A DNA stretch of 41,102 bases from Bacteroidota bacterium (GTDB lineage Bacteria; Bacteroidota; Bacteroidia; J057), in the NCBI GenBank assembly GCA_003696835.1, contig RFHT01000510.1:1-41102 (forward strand). The letters are read 5' to 3'. The position numbers were made by a program, and so were the translations under genes. Every line of letters starts with the position of its first letter. Positions within the stretch are counted from its first letter, which is position 1. The notes beneath the pieces are model-generated. The model was not told where the DNA came from, searched no databases, and saw only the letters and a list, made by a program, of their open reading frames with translations. Shown here piece after piece: positions 3,881 to 35,072 of the stretch.

Positions 3881-6433
3881 TTAATCTACCAAAAATATCG
3901 CATTGCTCAGCAACAACCTGCCCCGGTACCAAAATGCCCGGATAATGGGCGAGTCGCTCACATAAACCACAGTGCCACTGCCCAGGTATTCCTGCCCGAT
4001 GGCCAGGGTATTTTGCAGCTTTTGCCGGAGCTTTGCACCGGCAAAACCCGCTACATAGCCGCTTTCCTGGAAGGTGCCCACATTCCAGCCCCGCTCCGAA
4101 AGGTAGGGGTAGGCCGTGTTGTTGCGTTTGATCAGGTGCAGGGAAGTTCCCAGGCCGAAGGCCAGGGGGTGCGTTTCGTCCAGTTGCACCCGGAAGATAG
4201 CCCCTTCCACCGACTCGGTGAGAAAAGCGCGGTTGCGGTCGCTGTACTTTTTGAGGGCCTCATCGGGATCTGCCTCTTGCTCTTCCTTTTTGTCTTTGCG
4301 CATCTTCTCCATGTCTTTGGCCAGCTGGGTTTGGGGTTTGTCGTCCTTGCTGGCATTTGCAAACAAGCTCAGAGCGCGCTCAAAGGCAATGACTTTGCCT
4401 CCCTGCCGCACGTATTCCAGAATTTGATCGGAGAAGCGGCCGTAATTGCCCGAAACCAGGATGAGTACATCAAATTCCTCCAAATCCACCCGTCCCAGGT
4501 AGGCGGTATTGAGCATGGTGGCGGGATATTGCAGTTGTTGTTCCATAAAAAACCACAGCTCCCCCAGGCTGGTGGGGCTCACGCCATCGCCCCCCAGTAT
4601 GGCCACTTTGGGGGCGTGTATATAGCGCACGCTGCGCGAGCCAAAGTCCTTGCCGCTGTCCACCATACCGGTATATACAGGCGTGAGCACTTGCTGGTGT
4701 TCATTGGCAATTTTGAGTAGTTTTTCATCAAATTGCGGGCCTTTGTTATCGGTGCGCAAAAACAGCAGGGTTCCCCTGTCATAGTCCTTCCCGTCTATGC
4801 GGAAGGGCTGCTCGGCAAAGCGCGCCCTCAGTTGCTGCCCAAAGGCGGCAGCCAGAAAACGCGCATCCTGGAAGTCCTTCCAGGCCAGCAGGTAGCCCAC
4901 AGGCTTTTGCTCAGGCAGGGAGTTGCGAACCGTTTTGGGCGCCGGCTTCTCACCAGGCAGCAGGCGTTCAGTGGTGGCAAAGGCCTGCAATCCATACACA
5001 TAGGGCAGCGCCCAGGCCGTGAGGTCGTAGGTGGCAGAGTCTTCCACAGCAGTTTTGGGCTCCATCAGCACCTGCACAAAGCGCGAGAGCGGCTGGTAGG
5101 CCGAAATCACCAGGTCGCCGGCCTCCAGACGAAAGGGCGTGCTTTGGTTGAGTTGATAGTCAAAGCCTTTAAGGCTACGGCCCGGACGCTGGGCGCTGCC
5201 ATACTGTATGCCATTGAGCTCCAGCAGCTCTGTAAAGGCCTGCAGGGTAGCGGGGTCGTTCTGGGGTTCGCCCTTGATCACGTAGGACTTGTAAGGGCCT
5301 GCAGGATTGTTCATGCCCTGCTGGAAATATTGCTCAAACTCCTCAAGCAGGCGGCTGCGCTGCTGGTAGGCCACCTCTATGGTGGACATGCTGGTGGTGT
5401 AGTGGTGGGCAATGCGGTCGGCCAGGCTGAGGGTGTCGCCCGTGTCGGTGATGACGGCCAGGCCGCCGCGGCCGCCACCGCCCTGCTCGTAGGTAAAGCC
5501 GATGGCCCCGTTGAAGGTGGGCCAGGTGTCGCCATAGCTGGGGTAGAGCAGGTCAAATACCTCCTTGCTGAAAAACAACCAGGATTCCTGATCGAAATAG
5601 CGGGCGTGGTTGCGGCCGATGAGTTGCTGAAACTCCCGCTGCCAGGGCGTAATCACCTCGTGGTAGGGCCTGGCTGCCGGAGCAAAAAAGTAAGGGGAGT
5701 TCATGCCCATTTCGTGAAAATCCACGTGTACCTGGGGCATCCACTGGCGGTAGAGGGCCATGCGCTGCCGGCTTTCTATCTGGGTTTGCCAGGCCCAGTC
5801 GCGGTTGAGGTCAAAGAGGTAGTGGTTGTAGCGCCCGCCTGGCCAGGGTTGGTTGTGTTCATAGGCCAGTGGGTCGGCATTGGGAGTAGCATTGCCGTAC
5901 TGGTTGTAAAAATGGGCGTAGCGGTCGCGGCCGTCGGGGTTGATGCAGGGGTCCAGCACCACCACCATATTTTCCAGCCACTCCGCTGCTCCCTCCCACT
6001 GACCCGTAACCAGGCTGTGGAGCACGGCCATGGCCGCCTCGGTGGACACCGACTCGTCGCCGTGCACATTGTAGCTGAGCCACACGATGGGCAGCTTGCT
6101 TCCCACCACAGGCCCCAATTCACTTCTGCCGCTTAGCCGCAGGTTGTTCTGGCGAATTTCTTCAATTCGCTGCATGTTCTTTTCAGCCGTCACCACGGCC
6201 ACCATCAGGGGACGCCGCTCATTGGTTTGGCCGTAGGGAATGAGCTTTACACGGGGAGAACGTTCTGCCACGTACTGGTAGTAGTCCACTACCTTGTGGT
6301 GGTAGGTAAATTTGCTTCCCAGCTCATACCCCAGAAAGTCCGAAGGAGAACTAATTTGCTGGGCAGGCAGGGAAATGGGGACAAATGCCCATAACATGTA
6401 TCCAGCAATCAGAGAGAGAAGGATTTTGTTCAT
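3881..6433 (-). CDS. Secreted M14-family zinc carboxypeptidase
   Basis: An 850-residue protein. The N-terminal signal peptide ends near LPAQQ (residues 1-26). The peptidase domain covers roughly residues 35-400. The zinc ligands H124 and E127 stand in NVHGDES, and the third is H240 in VDFHEMG. The substrate-binding residues are R169 (INPDGRD) and N210-R211 (DLNRDW), and the catalytic Glu is E316 (FTYEQGG). The remaining 450 residues include an alpha/beta region with a glutamine-amidotransferase-like look (VAILGGDGVSP, VLILVSGNYG), as in large Bacteroidota M14 proteins. The expected role is removal of C-terminal residues from peptides in the periplasm or outside the cell. The gene starts 23 bp after fabG and is followed 73 bp later by the amidohydrolase, all on the minus strand, which suggests one transcript. 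Confidence 0.9.
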   Translation of the reverse strand: MNKILLSLIAGYMLWAFVPISLPAQQISSPSDFLGYELGSKFTYHHKVVDYYQYVAERSPRVKLIPYGQTNERRPLMVAVVTAEKNMQRIEEIRQNNLRLSGRSELGPVVGSKLPIVWLSYNVHGDESVSTEAAMAVLHSLVTGQWEGAAEWLENMVVVLDPCINPDGRDRYAHFYNQYGNATPNADPLAYEHNQPWPGGRYNHYLFDLNRDWAWQTQIESRQRMALYRQWMPQVHVDFHEMGMNSPYFFAPAARPYHEVITPWQREFQQLIGRNHARYFDQESWLFFSKEVFDLLYPSYGDTWPTFNGAIGFTYEQGGGGRGGLAVITDTGDTLSLADRIAHHYTTSMSTIEVAYQQRSRLLEEFEQYFQQGMNNPAGPYKSYVIKGEPQNDPATLQAFTELLELNGIQYGSAQRPGRSLKGFDYQLNQSTPFRLEAGDLVISAYQPLSRFVQVLMEPKTAVEDSATYDLTAWALPYVYGLQAFATTERLLPGEKPAPKTVRNSLPEQKPVGYLLAWKDFQDARFLAAAFGQQLRARFAEQPFRIDGKDYDRGTLLFLRTDNKGPQFDEKLLKIANEHQQVLTPVYTGMVDSGKDFGSRSVRYIHAPKVAILGGDGVSPTSLGELWFFMEQQLQYPATMLNTAYLGRVDLEEFDVLILVSGNYGRFSDQILEYVRQGGKVIAFERALSLFANASKDDKPQTQLAKDMEKMRKDKKEEQEADPDEALKKYSDRNRAFLTESVEGAIFRVQLDETHPLAFGLGTSLHLIKRNNTAYPYLSERGWNVGTFQESGYVAGFAGAKLRQKLQNTLAIGQEYLGSGTVVYVSDSPIIRAFWYRGRLLLSNAIFLVD

Positions 6434-6456
6434 GTTTCTTTATGAATAAGGAATGA

Positions 6457-7203
6457 TCAGGAAATGACGCCTCCGTTTACGCTCAGGGTATGGCCGTTGG
6501 TAAAGCCAGCGTAGGGCGAGGCGAGGTACAAATAGGCGTGGGCCAACTCCTCGGTGGTACCGGCCCGCCTCACGGGTATGCTGTCTTCAATGCCTTTGAG
6601 CATTTCGGGGGGAATGGTGGCCGTCATGTCGGTTTTCACAAAGCCGGGAGCCACGGCGTTTACCGTAATGCCGTATTTGCCCACCTCCCGGGCCAGGGCC
6701 TTGGTAAAACCAATGATGGCGGCCTTGCTGGCGCTGTAGTTGGTTTGTCCGTAGGCGCCCAGTATGCCATTGACCGAGGAAGCCGACACAATGCGCCCGT
6801 AGCCCGCCTCGCGCATGTGCGGAATCACGGCTTTGGTACAGGTGTAAATGCCGTTCAGGTTGACGTTGATCACCTGGTGCCACTCCTCATCGGTCATTTT
6901 CAAAAAGGTGCGGTCGCGCACAATGCCGGCATTGTTGATCAGAATATCGATGCGCCCAAACTGACGCATGACTTCCTCCACGGCCTGCTCCACCGAGGCC
7001 TTGTCGGTTACATCTACTTTTTGAAACATGGCCTTGCCGCCGGCTGCCCGTAGCGCTTCAGCTGTGGCCTCGCCCGCATCCAGCACATCCCACAAGGCTA
7101 CCTGGGCGCCCTCTTCACAAAATAATTTGCATATTCCCTTGCCTATGCCACGTGCTCCGCCGGTGACGATGGCAACTTGTCCTGCTAGTAGGTTGGTATC
7201 CAT
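6457..7203 (-). CDS. fabG: Short-chain dehydrogenase, 3-oxoacyl-ACP reductase (FabG) type
   Basis: The ATG at 7201-7203 gives 248 residues, the usual SDR length; a frame open to 7374 would add 57 residues with no family similarity. The NAD(P)-binding motif TGGARGIG (14-21), the NNAG motif (90-93) and the catalytic set S143, Y156 (NYSASK) and K160 are all intact. The PGFVKTDMT loop (187-195) is FabG-like. The reaction is NADPH-dependent reduction of a 3-oxoacyl thioester to the 3-hydroxy form in the cytoplasm. Acetoacetyl-CoA reductases have the same motifs, so the acyl carrier (ACP or CoA) is not settled. No other fatty-acid gene is adjacent. It is the first gene of a minus-strand run and is divergent from nagB, with a 216-bp shared upstream region. 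Confidence 0.88.
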   Translation of the reverse strand: MDTNLLAGQVAIVTGGARGIGKGICKLFCEEGAQVALWDVLDAGEATAEALRAAGGKAMFQKVDVTDKASVEQAVEEVMRQFGRIDILINNAGIVRDRTFLKMTDEEWHQVINVNLNGIYTCTKAVIPHMREAGYGRIVSASSVNGILGAYGQTNYSASKAAIIGFTKALAREVGKYGITVNAVAPGFVKTDMTATIPPEMLKGIEDSIPVRRAGTTEELAHAYLYLASPYAGFTNGHTLSVNGGVIS

Positions 7204-7378
7204 AAATGAACTACTGTTTATTGAAGGTGTGAAATGAGGCAAAAGTAACGCTTTTTCCAGGCATTTTGCAATTTTGGAAAACACACCCAAAGAGCATGCG
7301 AATTGAAAAAGTGTTTTTCTGAACGTTCCTTGCCACCGGCTCCCACTGATTTTTTCAACCAAGACGATCAACATTAAT

Positions 7379-7408
7379 CAGGGATTAGCAATTATCCCTG
7401 TATCTTGC
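7379..7408 (+). promoter_or_regulatory. Operator-like inverted repeat with candidate -7 element upstream of nagB
   Basis: A perfect 7-bp inverted repeat (CAGGGAT at 7379-7385, ATCCCTG at 7394-7400, 8-base spacer) is immediately followed by TATCTTGC (7401-7408), which resembles the Bacteroidota -7 element. The arrangement looks like a repressor or activator site overlapping a promoter in the divergent fabG/nagB region. It is inferred from spacing only. Confidence 0.4.
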
Positions 7409-7419
7409 ATCCTGCATCC

Positions 7420-8190
7420 ATGAAAAATTCAACCCCCATGAACCTACACATCTTTCCGGACAAACAGGCCTTGGGCCGGGCTTCGGGCCAGCGGGCCGCC
7501 GAACTGATCCGGGCTGCCATTCGGCAGGCCGGCAGGGCCCACCTGCTGCTGGCCACAGGCGCCAGCCAGTTTGAAACACTTGCAGCACTTACTGCTGCGA
7601 AGGACATAGACTGGAGCCAGGTGGTCATGTTTCACCTGGATGAGTACCTGGGCTTACCGGCTACCCATCCGGCCAGTTTCCGCGCCTATTTGCAGCAGCG
7701 CTTTGTGCAGCGCGTGGGCCCGCTCAGGGCTGTTCACTTCATCCAGGGCGATGCACCGGATGCGCAGGCGGAGTGTGAACGCATCAGCAACCTCATACGC
7801 GCTCACCCCATAGACGTGGCCCTGGTGGGTATAGGCGAAAACGGCCATCTGGCATTCAACGACCCACCGGCCGATATGGAAACCGAAGCGCCCTATATAC
7901 GGGTCAACCTGGACGAAGCCTGCCGCAGGCAGCAACTGGGCGAGGGCTGGTTTGCCAGCCTGGAAGAAGTGCCCCGGCAGGCCATCTCCATGAGTGTACA
8001 GCAAATTTTGAAAAGCAAACACATCCTCTGCTCCGTTCCCGATGCCCGAAAGGCCCAGGCGGTAAAAATGGCCCTGGAAGGCCCCATTGGGGAATGGTGT
8101 GCGGCATCAGCCCTGCAAGCACATCCGCAGTGCGAGTTTTTTCTGGATAAGGACTCGGCCGCTTTGCTCAGTGAATCGCTCAAAGCATAG
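7420..8190 (+). CDS. nagB: Glucosamine-6-phosphate deaminase/isomerase family protein (NagB-like)
   Basis: A 256-residue cytoplasmic enzyme of the NagB/RpiA/SugarP-isomerase fold. Visible motifs are the phosphate loop LATGASQ (44-50), FHLDEYLG with D74, and GIGENGHLAFNDP (137-149) with H143. The family reaction converts glucosamine-6-phosphate to fructose-6-phosphate and ammonia, linking amino sugars (from chitin or peptidoglycan) to glycolysis. Compared with E. coli NagB, the active-site Asp141 is Asn here and Glu148 is Asp, a variant common in distant homologues, so substrate or rate may differ. The start is uncertain: ATGs at 7405, 7420 and 7438 are in frame. 7420 is chosen because 7405 lies on top of the likely -7 element; 7438 also matches the family start. 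The gene ends 3 bp from the convergent dioxygenase gene. Confidence 0.82.
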   Translation: MKNSTPMNLHIFPDKQALGRASGQRAAELIRAAIRQAGRAHLLLATGASQFETLAALTAAKDIDWSQVVMFHLDEYLGLPATHPASFRAYLQQRFVQRVGPLRAVHFIQGDAPDAQAECERISNLIRAHPIDVALVGIGENGHLAFNDPPADMETEAPYIRVNLDEACRRQQLGEGWFASLEEVPRQAISMSVQQILKSKHILCSVPDARKAQAVKMALEGPIGEWCAASALQAHPQCEFFLDKDSAALLSESLKA

Positions 8191-28229: not shown

Positions 28230-29519
28230 ATGAAACTCTATACGAAAATTCTCCTGGGGATGATACTGGGTATCATCGTGGGCTTTGCATTTAATCAGTT
28301 TGGCGCGGCCGAATACGCTGCCTACATTGAGCCCATTGGCACCATCTTTATTCGGTTGGTAAAAATGCTGGTAGTGCCCCTGGTGTTGATATCGCTCATT
28401 CTGGGCTCGGCCAGCCTGGGCGACATACGCAAGGTGGGTAAGATGGGACTGAAAGCCTTTGCCTTCTTTATGTTTACCACGGCCGTGGCAGCCACCATCG
28501 GCATCGCGGTAGCCAATATCGGCCAGCCAGGTGTTGGAATGCCCGAAGAAAAAAAGACGGAGCTCATTGCCCAGTACGAAGAGCAAAGCCTGCAACAGGC
28601 AGCCGAGGCCGAAGAACTGGCCGAAAAAAGCGAGCTGGAAAAAATCTTCGACCTGATGGTGCGCATTGTGCCCACCAACCCCTTTCAGTCGCTGGCCGAG
28701 GGCGACATGCTGGGCGTCATCTTTTTCGCCCTCTTTCTGGGAATTTGTATCACCCTCATCCCGCCGGAGAAGGCGGCTCCCCTCATCAAGGCCTTTGATG
28801 GCCTGAACGATGCCGTAATCAAAATGGTAACCCTGGCCATGGAAACGGCCCCCTACGGGGTATTTGCCCTCATGGTAGGGGTGGTGGCCACGCTGGGGCT
28901 GGATATTCTGGTGCTGTTGTTTAAATACGCCATAATCGTCTTGCTGGGACTGATCCTACACGTAGTCATTACGCATTTTTCTTTCATCTACTTTTATGTA
29001 AGGCGCAGCCCCCTGCTGTTTTTGCGGGCCATCAAGGAAGCCATATTGCTGGGCTTCAGCACCAGCTCAAGCAGTGCCACCCTGCCCATCAGTATGGACG
29101 TGGCCCAGCGCAACCTGGGCGTATCGCGGGAAGTATCCAGCTTTGTGCTGCCCCTGGGCGCCACCATCAATATGGATGGCACGGCCCTTTACCAGGCGGT
29201 AGCCGCTATTTTCATTGCGCAGGTATTTGGCATCGACCTCACCTTTGTACAGCAGCTCACCATCATTCTCACAGCTACGCTCGCATCTGTGGGCGCTGCG
29301 GGGGTGCCGGGCGCAGGCATGATTACTCTGGCTCTGGTGCTGGGCACCATAGGGGTGCCCGAAACGGGCCTGGCCCTCATTTTTGGGCTCGACCGCCTCA
29401 TTGACATGTGCCGCACCACCATCAACATTATAGGCGACCTCACCCTTACCTCGGTCATGGCCAAATCGGAAGGAGAAACGGTGGATATTCAGCTGGACCG
29501 GGACATCATTCCTGGTTGA
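28230..29519 (+). CDS. Dicarboxylate / acidic amino acid:cation symporter (DAACS, GltP family)
   Basis: A 429-residue inner-membrane transporter. The family's reentrant loop HP1 is seen as STSSSSATLP (277-286), the TM7 motif as NMDGT (314-318), HP2 as GAAGVPGAG (355-363), and the TM8 substrate site as DMCRTTIN with D392, R395 and N399. The Arg at the position of GltPh Arg397 predicts an acidic substrate such as glutamate, aspartate, succinate or fumarate, taken up with Na+ or H+. A charged, helical insertion (about 104-140, rich in Glu, Gln and Ala) between the third and fourth segments is typical of some Bacteroidota members. It is divergent from the DUF2937 operon and overlaps the following convergent gene by 14 bases at its 3' end. 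Confidence 0.93.
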   Translation: MKLYTKILLGMILGIIVGFAFNQFGAAEYAAYIEPIGTIFIRLVKMLVVPLVLISLILGSASLGDIRKVGKMGLKAFAFFMFTTAVAATIGIAVANIGQPGVGMPEEKKTELIAQYEEQSLQQAAEAEELAEKSELEKIFDLMVRIVPTNPFQSLAEGDMLGVIFFALFLGICITLIPPEKAAPLIKAFDGLNDAVIKMVTLAMETAPYGVFALMVGVVATLGLDILVLLFKYAIIVLLGLILHVVITHFSFIYFYVRRSPLLFLRAIKEAILLGFSTSSSSATLPISMDVAQRNLGVSREVSSFVLPLGATINMDGTALYQAVAAIFIAQVFGIDLTFVQQLTIILTATLASVGAAGVPGAGMITLALVLGTIGVPETGLALIFGLDRLIDMCRTTINIIGDLTLTSVMAKSEGETVDIQLDRDIIPG

Positions 29520-30819
29520 GGCTGCTCAGTGCCTGGGCATGAAAATGCGATTCGGACTGGAAGGTGAAGAAAGCTGCGCCTTCGGCGCAGGTAGGCAGAT
29601 ACATATCTATGGAGCAGTTGCCCTTGTTCAGGCCCAGCACAAAATGCCGCAATGCCTCTCCCCGGGCATTCACCCAGCTGATGCGGGCTCGTTGCCGTTT
29701 GGGCGATTTTAGCTTCAGGCTGAGCATATCGCCCTTTTTTTGTACCTGTAAGGAGGTGTCATATTGCAGGCCCTGAATATGCCGTACTTCACTGATGCCC
29801 ACTGTGCCGTCGGTGCTGTACTGCTTGAGGCGGTAGTAATTGTTGTAGGTAAAGGGGTCGTGATCCGTCAGGCTGTACACAGTAGCCCTACGGCTGTTGC
29901 CGACTGCGCGCAGTCGGCCTATGGACGTCCAGCTCTTCAAGTCGGCTGAACGCTCCACCTCGTAGTAGGCATTGTTGAGCTCAAAGGTACTTTCCCAGGT
30001 CAGCAGCACGGAGCCATTCCGCGGAGCTGCCCGAAAGTACAACAACTCTACCGGGGAAGGTGGATACATGGGGCCCAGGGTCCACAGGGCTGCCAGGTCC
30101 AGCACATTGGTTTCCAGGTAATGTGCTGCTGCATTGAGGCGGGCAGGCATGCTTTCCCAGCTCAGCCCGCCATCCCTGCTCACATACAGCCCCAGGGCAT
30201 GTTCCCGCAGCTCTCCCAGCGCTGCGGGCTGGTAGGCAAAGCGCAGCTTGCCCAGCAGGGAAGGGGTGGTAAGGGCTTGAATGCGAATGACGGGCCCTAT
30301 GCCACCACCGGGTATGCCTCTGCCCCTTTCCACTCTTTTGTCCATTTGTACGATGCGCAGGGCCGCACTCCTTTCCATTGGCAAAATGGCAACATCTCCT
30401 CCTAAGGCAGCATTCCATTGGCCTGCTATGGCCCTTAGACTCCCCGATTTTCTTCCGGGACCGTCGTTCAGTACAGTCTGTATGTTCTGGGGGTTTCCGA
30501 TGTAGGCTGGTGCTGCTATGCTGCGATAATTTCCCTTCTGATGGGCTGCTTCTATAGAAAATAGCACTCCCCCCTCCAACTGTATAGCTCCGCTTCTTAG
30601 TAGCATTGCGAGCACTTCGGGATCATTTTCCCACCTGGTTTCACCTTGCTGCCCCACCATTACTGCGCTTACAGCAACTATGCCTAGCAGGCACCCCAGC
30701 AACAACTTTTGTCGTATGCCAATGCGCAGCGAGTTGCGGGCTTTCACCCTTATTTCCAGCCTGTTTCCAGTTCGGGCTTGCATAAGAGAGCGGTTAATAT
30801 GAGGTATAAAATTAGACAT
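29506..30819 (-). CDS. Membrane-anchored protein with Bacteroidota beta-sandwich module, unknown role
   Basis: 437 residues from the ATG at 30817-30819; an ATG at 30783 is a good alternative and a TTG at 30828 is unlikely. A long basic N-terminus precedes one hydrophobic segment (about 38-56), so it is probably anchored in the inner membrane or exported with an unusual signal. Residues about 57-255 show no recognised domain. About 258-345 form the same beta-sandwich module seen in the large secreted glycosidase (VERSADLKSWTSIG, NNYYRLKQYSTDG). Proteins with this module usually end in a T9SS sorting domain; here the last 60 residues lack a clear PNP...G-Y/F pattern, so the sorting signal is lost or diverged. 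The 3' end overlaps the symporter gene tail-to-tail. Function is unknown. Confidence 0.72.
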   Translation of the reverse strand: MSNFIPHINRSLMQARTGNRLEIRVKARNSLRIGIRQKLLLGCLLGIVAVSAVMVGQQGETRWENDPEVLAMLLRSGAIQLEGGVLFSIEAAHQKGNYRSIAAPAYIGNPQNIQTVLNDGPGRKSGSLRAIAGQWNAALGGDVAILPMERSAALRIVQMDKRVERGRGIPGGGIGPVIRIQALTTPSLLGKLRFAYQPAALGELREHALGLYVSRDGGLSWESMPARLNAAAHYLETNVLDLAALWTLGPMYPPSPVELLYFRAAPRNGSVLLTWESTFELNNAYYEVERSADLKSWTSIGRLRAVGNSRRATVYSLTDHDPFTYNNYYRLKQYSTDGTVGISEVRHIQGLQYDTSLQVQKKGDMLSLKLKSPKRQRARISWVNARGEALRHFVLGLNKGNCSIDMYLPTCAEGAAFFTFQSESHFHAQALSSLNQE

Positions 30820-31018
30820 TAATATCAAAATAGTAATATTTTTTATATAAAATATATTACATAAGAACTATTTGCCAAAACTACAAGTATGCACCTTTCA
30901 GACAGATACGGACCGCTTTCAGCATTTTTTTTTCAGGAAGGAGTAACCATTTTGATTTTCGTTGCATTAATGATGTTGAAAGACTTTGCACCATCATGAA
31001 TACACCTGATACCTGCAG

Positions 31019-31163: not shown

Positions 31164-34100
31164 TTAAAAGAAAAAGCCCATTTTCACTTCCAGAATGTTC
31201 AGTTCTTTGGAGAGGGAGTAGGTAGCCGAAATCACTGCTGCGGAATAGGGGGAAATGACGATGCCGCCGCCATAGCCTCTGTGCCAGCGGGTGGACTGCT
31301 CCCCTGCCAGCCACACCCTGCCATAGTCGAAAAATGCGATGAGACCTGTTTGCAGGGGCAGGTAGTAGTTGTTGAGTTTAAAGAGGCGAATGCGCAGGTC
31401 GGTGTTGTGAAAAAAGGCGGCATCGCCGGCGAAGCGTTCGCCGCGATAAGCCCTGAGGTTGCTGCGGCGCCCCAGTGTTTGTGCCTGAAAAAATTCATAT
31501 TCGCCCCAATTTCTTGCATAGCCTACGCGACTGCCCAGGGTGATAAGGGTAGGCGCATACAAGCTGAAAAAGACAGCCAGGTCGGTTTGCAGGCTGGTAT
31601 ATTGCATGTTGCGCTGCCGCAGGTTGGTGTACCAGCCCGTCTGGAAATTGAACCGCAGCCCGCGCATGGGGAAAACGGGATTGTCCACGGCATCTATGTG
31701 GTAGTTAAACTGCAGGCCAGCGTAGTGTTTGGGCTCAAAAGCCTCTGCTCCCAGGCTGTTGTCCTGCACCACAAAGCGGCCTTCATTTTCTTCGGCCGAT
31801 ACCCTCGTAAACGCATAGACCGGCCCCAAACGCAGCAGGTGCTGTTGTTCGTTAAAGGATTTTTTGAGGGCGGGAAAAACTGTAATTCCGCTCATGCGCA
31901 CGCGGTTGAAGTCAAAGTTGTCATCGTTCATTTCGGTATAGCGGGTTTCATTTCCCAGCCCAAAATAATTGACCACATAAGTAGGCGCATGAGCCCTGGC
32001 ATCCAGATAGAAATCCAGCTTGCCCAAAGCACCCGTGAAATCCCCCTGGTATTTGACATCCAGGGCCCGGGTAGAGAAGGCCAGGCTGGCCAAAAAGCTG
32101 TGCTTGCTTTTGTAGGGTTCTTTGCGCCAGCCATGTTGGGTAGCAATAAATCCTCCCGCCAGGCTGAAGCCATCGTCCACATTAAAGCCGGGCAGCACCA
32201 GAGGCAGCAGATGGTTGAGTTTGAAAGCCTTGCGGTCATGGGCATTCACTGCTTCCGATAGCTGGGTTTTGTCCTTGGCTTCACGCCCCAATTGCAGCTC
32301 ATTTTGCCCTTTTACATCATACACCAGGGTGCGTTTGCCTCCTCCTACCCGCGATTCGTCTATGATGCGGTCCTTTCCTCCCCCACCAATGATGCGCAGC
32401 AGGCTGCCTGTGGCAGCCGTGCCACTCACATAAAATTCATCTTCGCCATTCAGGCCGTAGAGGCGCACTTCCCTGGTTTCGGGGTAGTGAAACACCCGCT
32501 CATAGATAAGCCTTCCCTTTTCCCCTGACTTTTTCAGCCGGTACACCCGCACGCGGGTTTGGTTGCCACCAAAGCGCTCTACTTCAAATCGCTCGTTCTG
32601 GTCGCTGCCCATGACCTCCACTTCCTTCGCCAGGAAATGATAGTAGCGGCTGGCCAGTTCGGGCAGACGGTCGCGGCGGGCCTTGAGTTTGGCAATGATT
32701 TCGGGGCCGTGCAGTTCATAAATGGCTTTGGGCCACAAACCGATGGCCGCCTCAATGAGGGAATCGGTAAAAGCGGCGCGCAGGGTATCGGCTGTGGCCA
32801 TCCAGGCATTGCGGTCTTTGGCCGTGAGAAAACTGCGGTCAAAATAGCGCGCATTGTAGTTCAGTCCCTGTATGTCGCGGGTGTCGTAATCGAAGTCGTG
32901 TAAATAGCGCAGGCCCCATTTGCGGGTGAGCAGCCAGGGAATGAAGCCGTTGACCACCGAAAACACCTGGTCGCGGTCGCGTGGAATGGGCACGTAGCGC
33001 TTGCCGTCCTCCTGCTTAAACTCCGCCCAGCGCCACTGGTCATCGTGGCGGTCCCAGTCGCCCAGCCACATATCCAGCAGGCGGGCCCGCAGCACGGCCT
33101 GCTGATCCACCTCTGTTTTGTTGGAGGCGTGCAGGGCGCGTAGCACCCGTGGGGTGGATTCTATGTCTTTGGGCCTGCCAAAGCTGGCCACATCCCGGCG
33201 GTCTTTGGCGGGCCGCTCTTCAAATAGGAACAGTTGATCGCCCAGGTCTTCGCTGAAGTCGCCCAGCATGGCTTGTTTGGGCACGTAGTAGTAGGTGGGA
33301 TTGGTGTGAAATACGCGTGCAGCATCAGCCAGGGGCGGCACTACCATGGCGCTGTAAGGGTGCGACATGGCAATCTGGTCCTGAATGATTTCGCGTATCA
33401 CGCTGTTTTCGGGCGCAATGGGAAAAAAACCGGCTACGGCCTTGCTCACATCTTTGGCTACGGAGCGCAGCACATACTGCTTTCCTTCGGGGTTTTGCAG
33501 GCGCAAGGATTGCGTTTGGAACCCCCCGCCTTTTTTTACGGGGGTGAGCCCCCCCAGGTGGGTACTGAGGTCGAGTACGGGAAACTTCAGTTCGGTGGAC
33601 CACACATCACGGTACAATTTGCCAAAAAACTTCTGCTTGCCTTTTCCCGCTTCGTAAATATCGCCTGCCCGGTCCACTACGCTGTCGATGGTCAAAGGCA
33701 CGGGGTCTTCAAGGGGAGCCAGGGAGAGGTCGGGGCTTTTGATTTGCCTGCGGTAAATGAGTTCTCCCTCCGAGCCGTCGCCCAGGGGGCGATACACTTC
33801 CAGCCAGGTGGCGCCGTCGGCGTAGAAGAGCAGCCGTGCAAAGCCTTTGGCACTGGTGGCAAACTCGGCTTTGGGAGTGCGGCGCACATAGTTACTCTTG
33901 CTGCCGGAGCCGCTGATAATGAAATGGCGGTCGCTGAGGATGCTTTCATCCTCAAAATACTGCAGGGTGTGCTCGTGGCCGGAAACGAAGACGATGTTAC
34001 CCCGTTTGAAGGTGGCATCCAGCAGGGTGTTGACCAGTTTTTTGTTTTTGGGGTGGGGAATTTCCTGAGCCGAAATTCCCAGGTAGCGCAGGGCAGGTAC

Positions 34101-34916
34101 CAGCGATCCCAGCAGGGGCGTGGGAATGTACAGGTGCTCATCCAGATGGGTAAGCGGAAAGAGGTGTTCTTTGATGGAAAAATAGCCGCCGTGCTCTCCC
34201 ACACTGCGCAGGGGGTGATGCAGGGCAATGATGATGCGCTGATCGTCGTATTCATCTATGAGCTCCTGGATTTTTTCCTCAAACTCGTGGCGGCTTTTTA
34301 TTTCGCAGCCTTCGTTGATGCCGGGCTCTCCTTTCCACTTGTGCAAATACCACTCAGAGTCCAGCATAATCAGCACCACGTCATCGGCCAGCTTTACCAC
34401 CGTGGGGTCGCCACAGGCGTTGGGGGGCTGGAGTACGCCCTTGCGACCGAGGTAGGCTTCTATATAGGCCTGCTGCCGCAGGATGGCCGCGCGCCCGCCC
34501 GCACTGTATTTGTTCCAGTCGTGGTTGCCGGGAATGAAGAAGACCTTGCCCTCGTAGTCTTTTACGGCGTCAAGCTGGGTGTTGAGGTGCTGCTCAGCAA
34601 TGGCCCGGTCTTTATGGTCTTCGGGCAGCATGCCGGCTGGGTAAATGTTGTCGCCCAAAAAAATGACGGTGCCGTTTTTGCCGGTTTCCCGCAGCTGCTG
34701 CCTCAGCAGCTTCAGGCCTGGCTCCAGGGGCAGGGAGTCTGGCTTGCCTGCATCGCCTATGAGGTAGAGGGTATGTACGGGCTGCTGGGGCAGGGGCAGC
34801 TGCCGCGTTTGCCATGTGCGCTCCTTGGGGTGGTAGTAAGGCTTGGTGGAATAGCAGGCAGCCAGGCAAAGAGCTGCTGTAAGCAGGGCCAACAGGCCGG
34901 GGAATCTGGAACGCAT
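31164..34916 (-). CDS. Lipoprotein fusion: metallophosphoesterase, kinase-like domain, Omp85-type barrel
   Basis: A 1250-residue envelope protein with a lipoprotein signal (lipobox LAAC, Cys21). Residues about 47-375 are a calcineurin-like phosphoesterase with all metal motifs: LIGDAGKPD, FLGDNIYP, IPGNHDW, ALHHP and VSGHEH. Residues about 470-700 carry YVLRSVAKD (K488), LLDMWLGDWDRHDDQW (D622) and PIPRDRDQVF (D647/D649), an order of motifs like the Lys, catalytic-Asp and metal-Asp of FAM20/HipA/CotH-type kinases; this reading is an inference. After a linker with GGGGKDRIIDES, residues about 890-1250 form a barrel. It has an Omp85-like LRAYRGERFAGD motif (1154-1165), the strand GLIAFFDYGRVW and the terminal aromatic FFF. 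The protein should sit in the outer membrane with its enzymatic parts on one face. Its function is unknown; the phosphoesterase and barrel calls are firm. Confidence 0.88.
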   Translation of the reverse strand: MRSRFPGLLALLTAALCLAACYSTKPYYHPKERTWQTRQLPLPQQPVHTLYLIGDAGKPDSLPLEPGLKLLRQQLRETGKNGTVIFLGDNIYPAGMLPEDHKDRAIAEQHLNTQLDAVKDYEGKVFFIPGNHDWNKYSAGGRAAILRQQAYIEAYLGRKGVLQPPNACGDPTVVKLADDVVLIMLDSEWYLHKWKGEPGINEGCEIKSRHEFEEKIQELIDEYDDQRIIIALHHPLRSVGEHGGYFSIKEHLFPLTHLDEHLYIPTPLLGSLVPALRYLGISAQEIPHPKNKKLVNTLLDATFKRGNIVFVSGHEHTLQYFEDESILSDRHFIISGSGSKSNYVRRTPKAEFATSAKGFARLLFYADGATWLEVYRPLGDGSEGELIYRRQIKSPDLSLAPLEDPVPLTIDSVVDRAGDIYEAGKGKQKFFGKLYRDVWSTELKFPVLDLSTHLGGLTPVKKGGGFQTQSLRLQNPEGKQYVLRSVAKDVSKAVAGFFPIAPENSVIREIIQDQIAMSHPYSAMVVPPLADAARVFHTNPTYYYVPKQAMLGDFSEDLGDQLFLFEERPAKDRRDVASFGRPKDIESTPRVLRALHASNKTEVDQQAVLRARLLDMWLGDWDRHDDQWRWAEFKQEDGKRYVPIPRDRDQVFSVVNGFIPWLLTRKWGLRYLHDFDYDTRDIQGLNYNARYFDRSFLTAKDRNAWMATADTLRAAFTDSLIEAAIGLWPKAIYELHGPEIIAKLKARRDRLPELASRYYHFLAKEVEVMGSDQNERFEVERFGGNQTRVRVYRLKKSGEKGRLIYERVFHYPETREVRLYGLNGEDEFYVSGTAATGSLLRIIGGGGKDRIIDESRVGGGKRTLVYDVKGQNELQLGREAKDKTQLSEAVNAHDRKAFKLNHLLPLVLPGFNVDDGFSLAGGFIATQHGWRKEPYKSKHSFLASLAFSTRALDVKYQGDFTGALGKLDFYLDARAHAPTYVVNYFGLGNETRYTEMNDDNFDFNRVRMSGITVFPALKKSFNEQQHLLRLGPVYAFTRVSAEENEGRFVVQDNSLGAEAFEPKHYAGLQFNYHIDAVDNPVFPMRGLRFNFQTGWYTNLRQRNMQYTSLQTDLAVFFSLYAPTLITLGSRVGYARNWGEYEFFQAQTLGRRSNLRAYRGERFAGDAAFFHNTDLRIRLFKLNNYYLPLQTGLIAFFDYGRVWLAGEQSTRWHRGYGGGIVISPYSAAVISATYSLSKELNILEVKMGFFF

Positions 34917-35072
34917 GAGCTGTAAGTTTTTGCTGGTAATGATCTCTAAAAAGATAAATTAACGAATTTCACCCACACTTTCCCATTGAAGCCGCGATTT
35001 TTGCTCAGGCTGCGTTGAAATAAGCAACGGGATCTATTAAAATACCCTCAACTGCCACCTCAACAAGTTCCC

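Follow-up and report, generated by a model that had tools for sequence, protein, structure and literature searches.

What might a single polypeptide do that carries a metallophosphoesterase, a kinase-like domain and an outer-membrane barrel? The question is raised by contig RFHT01000510.1 (GenBank assembly GCA_003696835.1) of a Bacteroidota bacterium (GTDB lineage J057), analysed here as one window of 41,102 nucleotides, in which positions 31164-34916 of the minus strand form a single open reading frame for a protein of 1250 amino acids, P0001. Computation finds in it three folds within one polypeptide, conserved candidate catalytic residues, export signals, a modular family and linkage to the polyphosphate kinase gene PPK1 across families. 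P0001 is probably an outer-membrane-anchored, periplasm-facing phosphotransferase/phosphatase tied to polyphosphate metabolism. The gene is laid out as follows.

31164..34916, minus strand: whole gene, for the exported phosphoesterase / kinase-like / Omp85 protein P0001 (open reading frame; full-length homologues)
34854..34916, minus strand: lipoprotein signal peptide, residues 1-21, with lipobox LAAC at 18-21 (motif reading)
33732..34769, minus strand: purple-acid-phosphatase-type metallophosphoesterase, residues ~50-395 (PF00149, E=2.7e-7; motifs; weak matches to TRAP and purple acid phosphatases)
32613..33713, minus strand: predicted kinase-like domain, residues ~402-768 (AlphaFold, Foldseek, stand-alone 423-residue proteins)
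33450..33476, minus strand: YVLRSVAKD, residues 481-489, with the candidate beta-3 lysine K488 (conservation of K488)
33027..33083, minus strand: RLLDMWLGDWDRHDDQWRW, residues 612-630, catalytic-loop-like motif (residue conservation)
32961..32990, minus strand: PIPRDRDQVF, residues 643-652, candidate metal motif at the DFG position (conservation; register with CotH iPyDyDntF)
32247..32612, minus strand: beta-rich linker domain, residues ~769-890, joining the kinase-like domain to the barrel (predicted secondary structure)
31167..32246, minus strand: Omp85 16-strand barrel, residues ~891-1250, with the L6-type motif LRAYR (PF01103, strand count in the model, Foldseek)

Distant relatives match P0001 over its whole length at ~30-51% identity, so the frame is not a chance one. 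A preliminary description of this DNA had proposed that one polypeptide combines a phosphoesterase, a kinase-like region and a barrel, and both the unbroken frame and the full-length homologues bear this out. The lipobox, five phosphoesterase motifs, three motifs in kinase-like order, Omp85 motif and aromatic C-terminus on which it relied are all in place, including GDWDRHDDQW at residues 619-628, LRAYRGERFAGD at residues 1154-1165 and a C-terminal GFFF; Pfam itself recognizes Metallophos at 69-250 and Omp85 at 996-1228. A 563-residue open frame on the plus strand (33234-34925) is antisense to this conserved coding gene and was set aside as an artefact, probably a by-product of codon usage.

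The middle of the protein has no match in Pfam or NCBIfam over residues 402-890, and Pfam matches to the same region of 32 relatives are scattered and at chance level. Neither the CotH model (PF08757) nor HipA_C (PF07804) matches any of the 33 members (P0001 and the 32 relatives); for this reason we do not assign the domain to the CotH or HipA proteins, though it may work like one of them. An AlphaFold model of residues 402-890, built on 33 aligned sequences from the window and the relatives' loci, has a mean predicted local distance difference test score (pLDDT) of 87.9 and a predicted template-modelling score (pTM) of 0.89. Its best Foldseek matches in the PDB are CtkA (1.8e-5), CotH (4.9e-5) and PI4KII-alpha (1.1e-4), with probability 1.00, and nearly all of the lower matches are other kinase-fold proteins. 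The family sequence profile, compared with the PDB using no structure, places CtkA second (E=0.45), with the catalytic loops in register. In profile-profile comparison, for which 40 column-shuffled profiles served as controls, the family scored 29-30 against CotH (shuffled maximum 22.3) and 23 against HipA (shuffled maximum 20.1); the alignment pairs GDWDRH with CotH gnwD, and PIPRDRDQVF with CotH iPyDyDntF. A bilobal protein-kinase-like (PKL) fold is thus supported for the modelled region. The preliminary description had named such a structure search as a check on its kinase reading, which came through it, and its guess of a HipA/CotH-like kind was close, the nearest solved folds being CtkA and CotH and the motifs lying in CotH register above the shuffled controls.

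The residue set expected of a PKL enzyme (an N-lobe lysine, a catalytic-loop Asp with Asn or Gln, and a later metal-binding Asp) is present. Over 78 distinct homologues, K488, E566, D615, D620 and R623 are invariant (78/78), D647 and D649 are each kept in 77, and D622 in 72; position 627 is Q in 73 and N in the other five. Near-invariance of K488, D622, D647 and D649 had been proposed earlier as a second check, and the counts agree with it. All six losses of D622 fall in one Hymenobacter-type paralogue, in which GDWSRR replaces GDWDRH and which is adjoined by an intact copy in each of the loci examined; the DRD motif is lost in one homologue (L110). In L036-L040 and L104 such neighbours are stand-alone kinase-like lipoproteins, one with GDWDRH and one with GDWSRR (e.g., L036:4148-5743 and 5809-7512). 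FAM20C and FAM20A are secretory-pathway kinases with a GNxDRH-type loop that form a pair of active and pseudokinase paralogues, and the intact and degenerate Hymenobacter-type pairs recall them. FAM20 proteins are likewise extracytoplasmic but eukaryotic, and the 50 best Foldseek matches listed include none of their structures. The Hymenobacter-type pairs also lie near genes for an APP1-type phosphatidate phosphatase (PF09949), a peptidase-like protein and a topoisomerase-like protein.

The phosphoesterase of P0001 has GDAG at residues 54-57, GDN at 88-90, GNHD at 130-133, HHP at 233-235 and GHEH at 313-316. This completes the metal motif set GDxG / GDNxY / GNHD / H / GHxH (as GDNIY at the second position), which we take to be that of the purple-acid-phosphatase (TRAP) variant of the calcineurin superfamily; the weak phmmer matches of P0001 are mostly to TRAP and purple acid phosphatases. 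At the other end of the protein, a model of 1200 residues (pLDDT 78) has 16 long barrel strands, and the best Foldseek matches of the barrel are BamA and TamA. The L6 motif is LRAYR in P0001 and LRGYR in the family consensus, of the (V/L)RGY/F type, and the C-terminal part belongs to the Omp85 superfamily. No POTRA domain is evident in this model between the kinase-like domain and the barrel. In homologues, nearly all readable N-termini have either a membrane segment or a signal peptide, the latter frequently with a lipobox and in most other cases of Sec type, and the kinase-like domain is therefore taken to be exported. In PlpD, another Omp85 protein, the enzymatic domain remains periplasmic (PMC11116518), and by analogy with it and with the Omp85 plan both enzyme domains of P0001 would face the periplasm.

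Homologues occur across the Bacteroidota, where a profile of the middle region matches 53 of 148 genomes, and in one Gemmatimonadota genome. They take four forms: phosphoesterase, kinase-like domain and barrel together (~1250 amino acids); kinase-like domain and barrel without the phosphoesterase (~870); kinase-like domain with the beta-rich extension alone (~500-570; e.g., L103, and the Hymenobacter pairs of L036-L040 and L104); and a minimal kinase-like protein of 423 amino acids without the extension (L100-L102). In the Gemmatimonadota genome (L034) the phosphoesterase and the kinase-barrel protein are encoded by separate, adjacent genes. A search of phage records with the kinase domain gave no match; plasmid matches are few, the most specific name among them being "hypothetical protein", and the family member of a Parabacteroides distasonis strain is listed in the same way. 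In the source genome (G000) itself there are two more copies, one full and 51% identical to P0001 (L105 / G000:C300:8475-12128), the other partial (G000:C705). The C300 copy reads GDWDRRSDNW at the loop (H624R, Q627N) and retains D622. Several true CotH-family (PF08757) proteins, six matches in all, are encoded by the same genome.

The neighbourhood of the gene in other genomes gives the strongest clue to function, one that the window does not contain and that was invisible to the preliminary description. Conserved neighbours of the family are PPK1, an SdiA-regulated (phytase-like) propeller lipoprotein, and a protein with an HD domain and a PycTM domain. Among 80 genomes with the family, from 26 families within which genomes are not independent, PPK1 lies no more than 12 kb from the family gene in 27 genomes (11 of the 26 families) and no more than 3 kb away in 14, compared with ~1.1 and ~0.45 expected by chance if gene order is presumed random. 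In L107, L217 and L218, PPK1, the propeller gene and the kinase-barrel gene follow one another in this order, all on the same strand and ~0-60 bp apart; the kinase-barrel gene of L214 is separated from PPK1 by a Ppx/GppA gene, and in L108, L213, L215 and L216 a histidine phosphatase is in the same cluster. In a PPK1 tree the linked copies are clustered and yet spread over several clades, so that the linkage must have formed or been lost more than once.

The HD domain that recurs beside PPK1 and the kinase-barrel gene is fused to a PycTM membrane domain like that of Pycsar effectors, with no obvious defence setting (L014:3440-4699, L111:1606-2793 and L217:11991-13226, among others). Anti-phage defence was considered on account of this resemblance and rejected, given the phosphate-related neighbourhood and the absence of any PADLOC match to P0001. 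Two stand-alone kinases (L100:5882-7150 and L103:5931-7424) do match the PADLOC family PDC-M03A weakly (E ~2e-4), around the catalytic loop, and by this sequence resemblance PDC-M03A, a candidate defence family, may be kinase-like as well. In two distant families the kinase-barrel gene is adjoined by a gene for a cyclase-domain protein with TPR repeats (L212:17613-19499 and L215:12873-14798); the L215 protein belongs to PF00211 and the L212 protein is its relative.

How might these parts work together? On the reading we favour, the protein would be fixed in the outer membrane by its Omp85 barrel, joined in this copy by a lipid at the N-terminus, and its periplasmic side would bear the CtkA/CotH-type kinase domain (with K488, E566, D622, Q627 and D647/D649) and the purple-acid-phosphatase-type phosphoesterase. 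The kinase domain would modify an envelope substrate with a phosphoryl (or nucleotidyl) group, and the role of the phosphoesterase would be to remove this group or to trim the donor; we infer catalytic activity, an antagonism of the two domains, a donor and a substrate. The protein as a whole would serve phosphate or polyphosphate metabolism, since PPK1 recurs in the neighbourhood of the family's genes. To our knowledge the periplasm holds no ATP pool, and the PPK1 link therefore makes polyphosphate an attractive candidate donor. The fuller proposal, that polymer made by PPK1 reaches the envelope, that an outer-membrane kinase powered by it (or by another non-ATP donor) phosphorylates envelope substrates, and that the phosphoesterase shortens the polymer or erases the mark, seems to us rather improbable as it stands. 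Several observations weigh against a phosphotransferase/phosphatase tied to polyphosphate. Known kinases superpose on the model with modest TM-scores (for CtkA ~0.5, by target length), and sequence similarity alone to any known kinase falls below significance. PPK1 is absent around the window's own gene (on a 41-kb contig), its linkage is not seen in 53 of the 80 genomes, sometimes owing to short contigs, and in one family (f24) it is loose, with the family gene 5-11 kb away. The phosphoesterase appears degenerate in two Saprospiraceae homologues (the N-termini of L031 and L035).

Other explanations can be put to the same evidence. The kinase-like domain might be a pseudokinase that retains the fold and its charged pocket, senses or binds a nucleotide or polyphosphate, and transfers no phosphate but regulates the barrel or the phosphoesterase. 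The GDWSRR loop of the Hymenobacter-type paralogue, the L110 protein without DRD and the periplasm's want of a known ATP pool would all fit, but a pseudoenzyme should show wider loss than is seen, most homologues retaining every candidate catalytic residue, including both metal-binding positions, and the degenerate copies adjoin an intact one, as FAM20A is paired with FAM20C. We consider this explanation unlikely, though one to be taken seriously. Still less probable is an outer-membrane phosphatase for phosphate scavenging, in which the kinase-like domain would be an accessory for substrate binding and the PPK1 linkage would reflect general phosphate supply. Phosphatase motifs are indeed intact in most full-length members, SdiA-regulated/phytase-like propellers are among the neighbours, and PPK1 genes of Bacteroidota can respond to phosphate starvation (Fjoh_3851, PMC8115612); however, many proteins keep the kinase-like domain without the phosphoesterase, and the starvation table for F. 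johnsoniae contains no such Omp85 fusion (PMC8115612). As for a middle region that is not of kinase type, with a coincidental motif order, the failure of every Pfam and NCBIfam model to match would agree with it, but the fold search, the controlled profile comparison and the motif invariance all indicate a kinase fold, and it is so strongly disfavoured as to be hardly credible.

Part of this architecture is already known. A "Metallo" subfamily of Omp85 proteins, with PF00149 and an Omp85 barrel, was described in 2014 by Heinz and Lithgow (PMC4104836), who read PF00149 as a metalloprotease and made no mention of a kinase in the text; their survey also includes an Omp85 subfamily without any N-terminal extension. 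P0001 has PF00149 and the barrel in one chain, and proteins with phosphoesterase, kinase-like domain and Omp85 barrel very probably belong to this subfamily, although its reported conservation does not go beyond the genus, and members of the kinase-barrel family occur here in many Bacteroidota families and one Gemmatimonadota genome. The preliminary description had seen an undescribed system: this holds for the kinase-like domain and its PPK1 context but not for the fusion of phosphatase and barrel. Papers on F. johnsoniae phosphate starvation and on Bacteroidota BAM and TamL do not mention the protein, and in our search, which extended over open-licence papers (subscription papers and preprints lay outside it), neither the kinase-like domain nor a polyphosphate linkage came up. 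A Riemerella virulence metallophosphoesterase, considered as the same protein, is a type IX secretion system effector according to a review and is probably different.

Among characterized proteins, CtkA of Helicobacter pylori (PDB 3akj/3akk/3akl) is both the top fold match and the top kinase match of the sequence profile, its LGNFDRHNGNW aligning with LGDWDRHDDQW of P0001, but identity is ~10-12%, the sequence E-value is not significant and it has neither phosphatase nor barrel. CotH kinases (PF08757; PDB 5jd9) have the fold class and an in-register DxD metal motif in common with the kinase-like domain, but differ in their accessory domains and in matching PF08757, and true CotH genes are separate in the source genome. 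PlpD resembles P0001 in joining a barrel to an N-terminal enzyme kept in the periplasm, and differs in having a patatin lipase and a POTRA domain where P0001 has the phosphoesterase and kinase-like domain (PMC11116518). We file the kinase-like domain, as modelled, as a family new to the kinase-like superfamily, set in a known Omp85 architecture. If this is right, the Bacteroidota would gain a large and so far unannotated family of kinase-like enzymes outside the cytoplasm, joined to a phosphatase and to the outer membrane, and how phosphorylation could run on the far side of the cytoplasmic membrane would become a testable question. The recurrence of PPK1 near the family's genes suggests a particular donor and gives a first way into the function of the "Metallo" Omp85 proteins.

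Elsewhere in the window, positions 29506-30828 of the minus strand encode a protein of 440 amino acids without a Pfam match, whose C-terminal part resembles, by eye only, the fibronectin-type sorting region of secreted Bacteroidota proteins.

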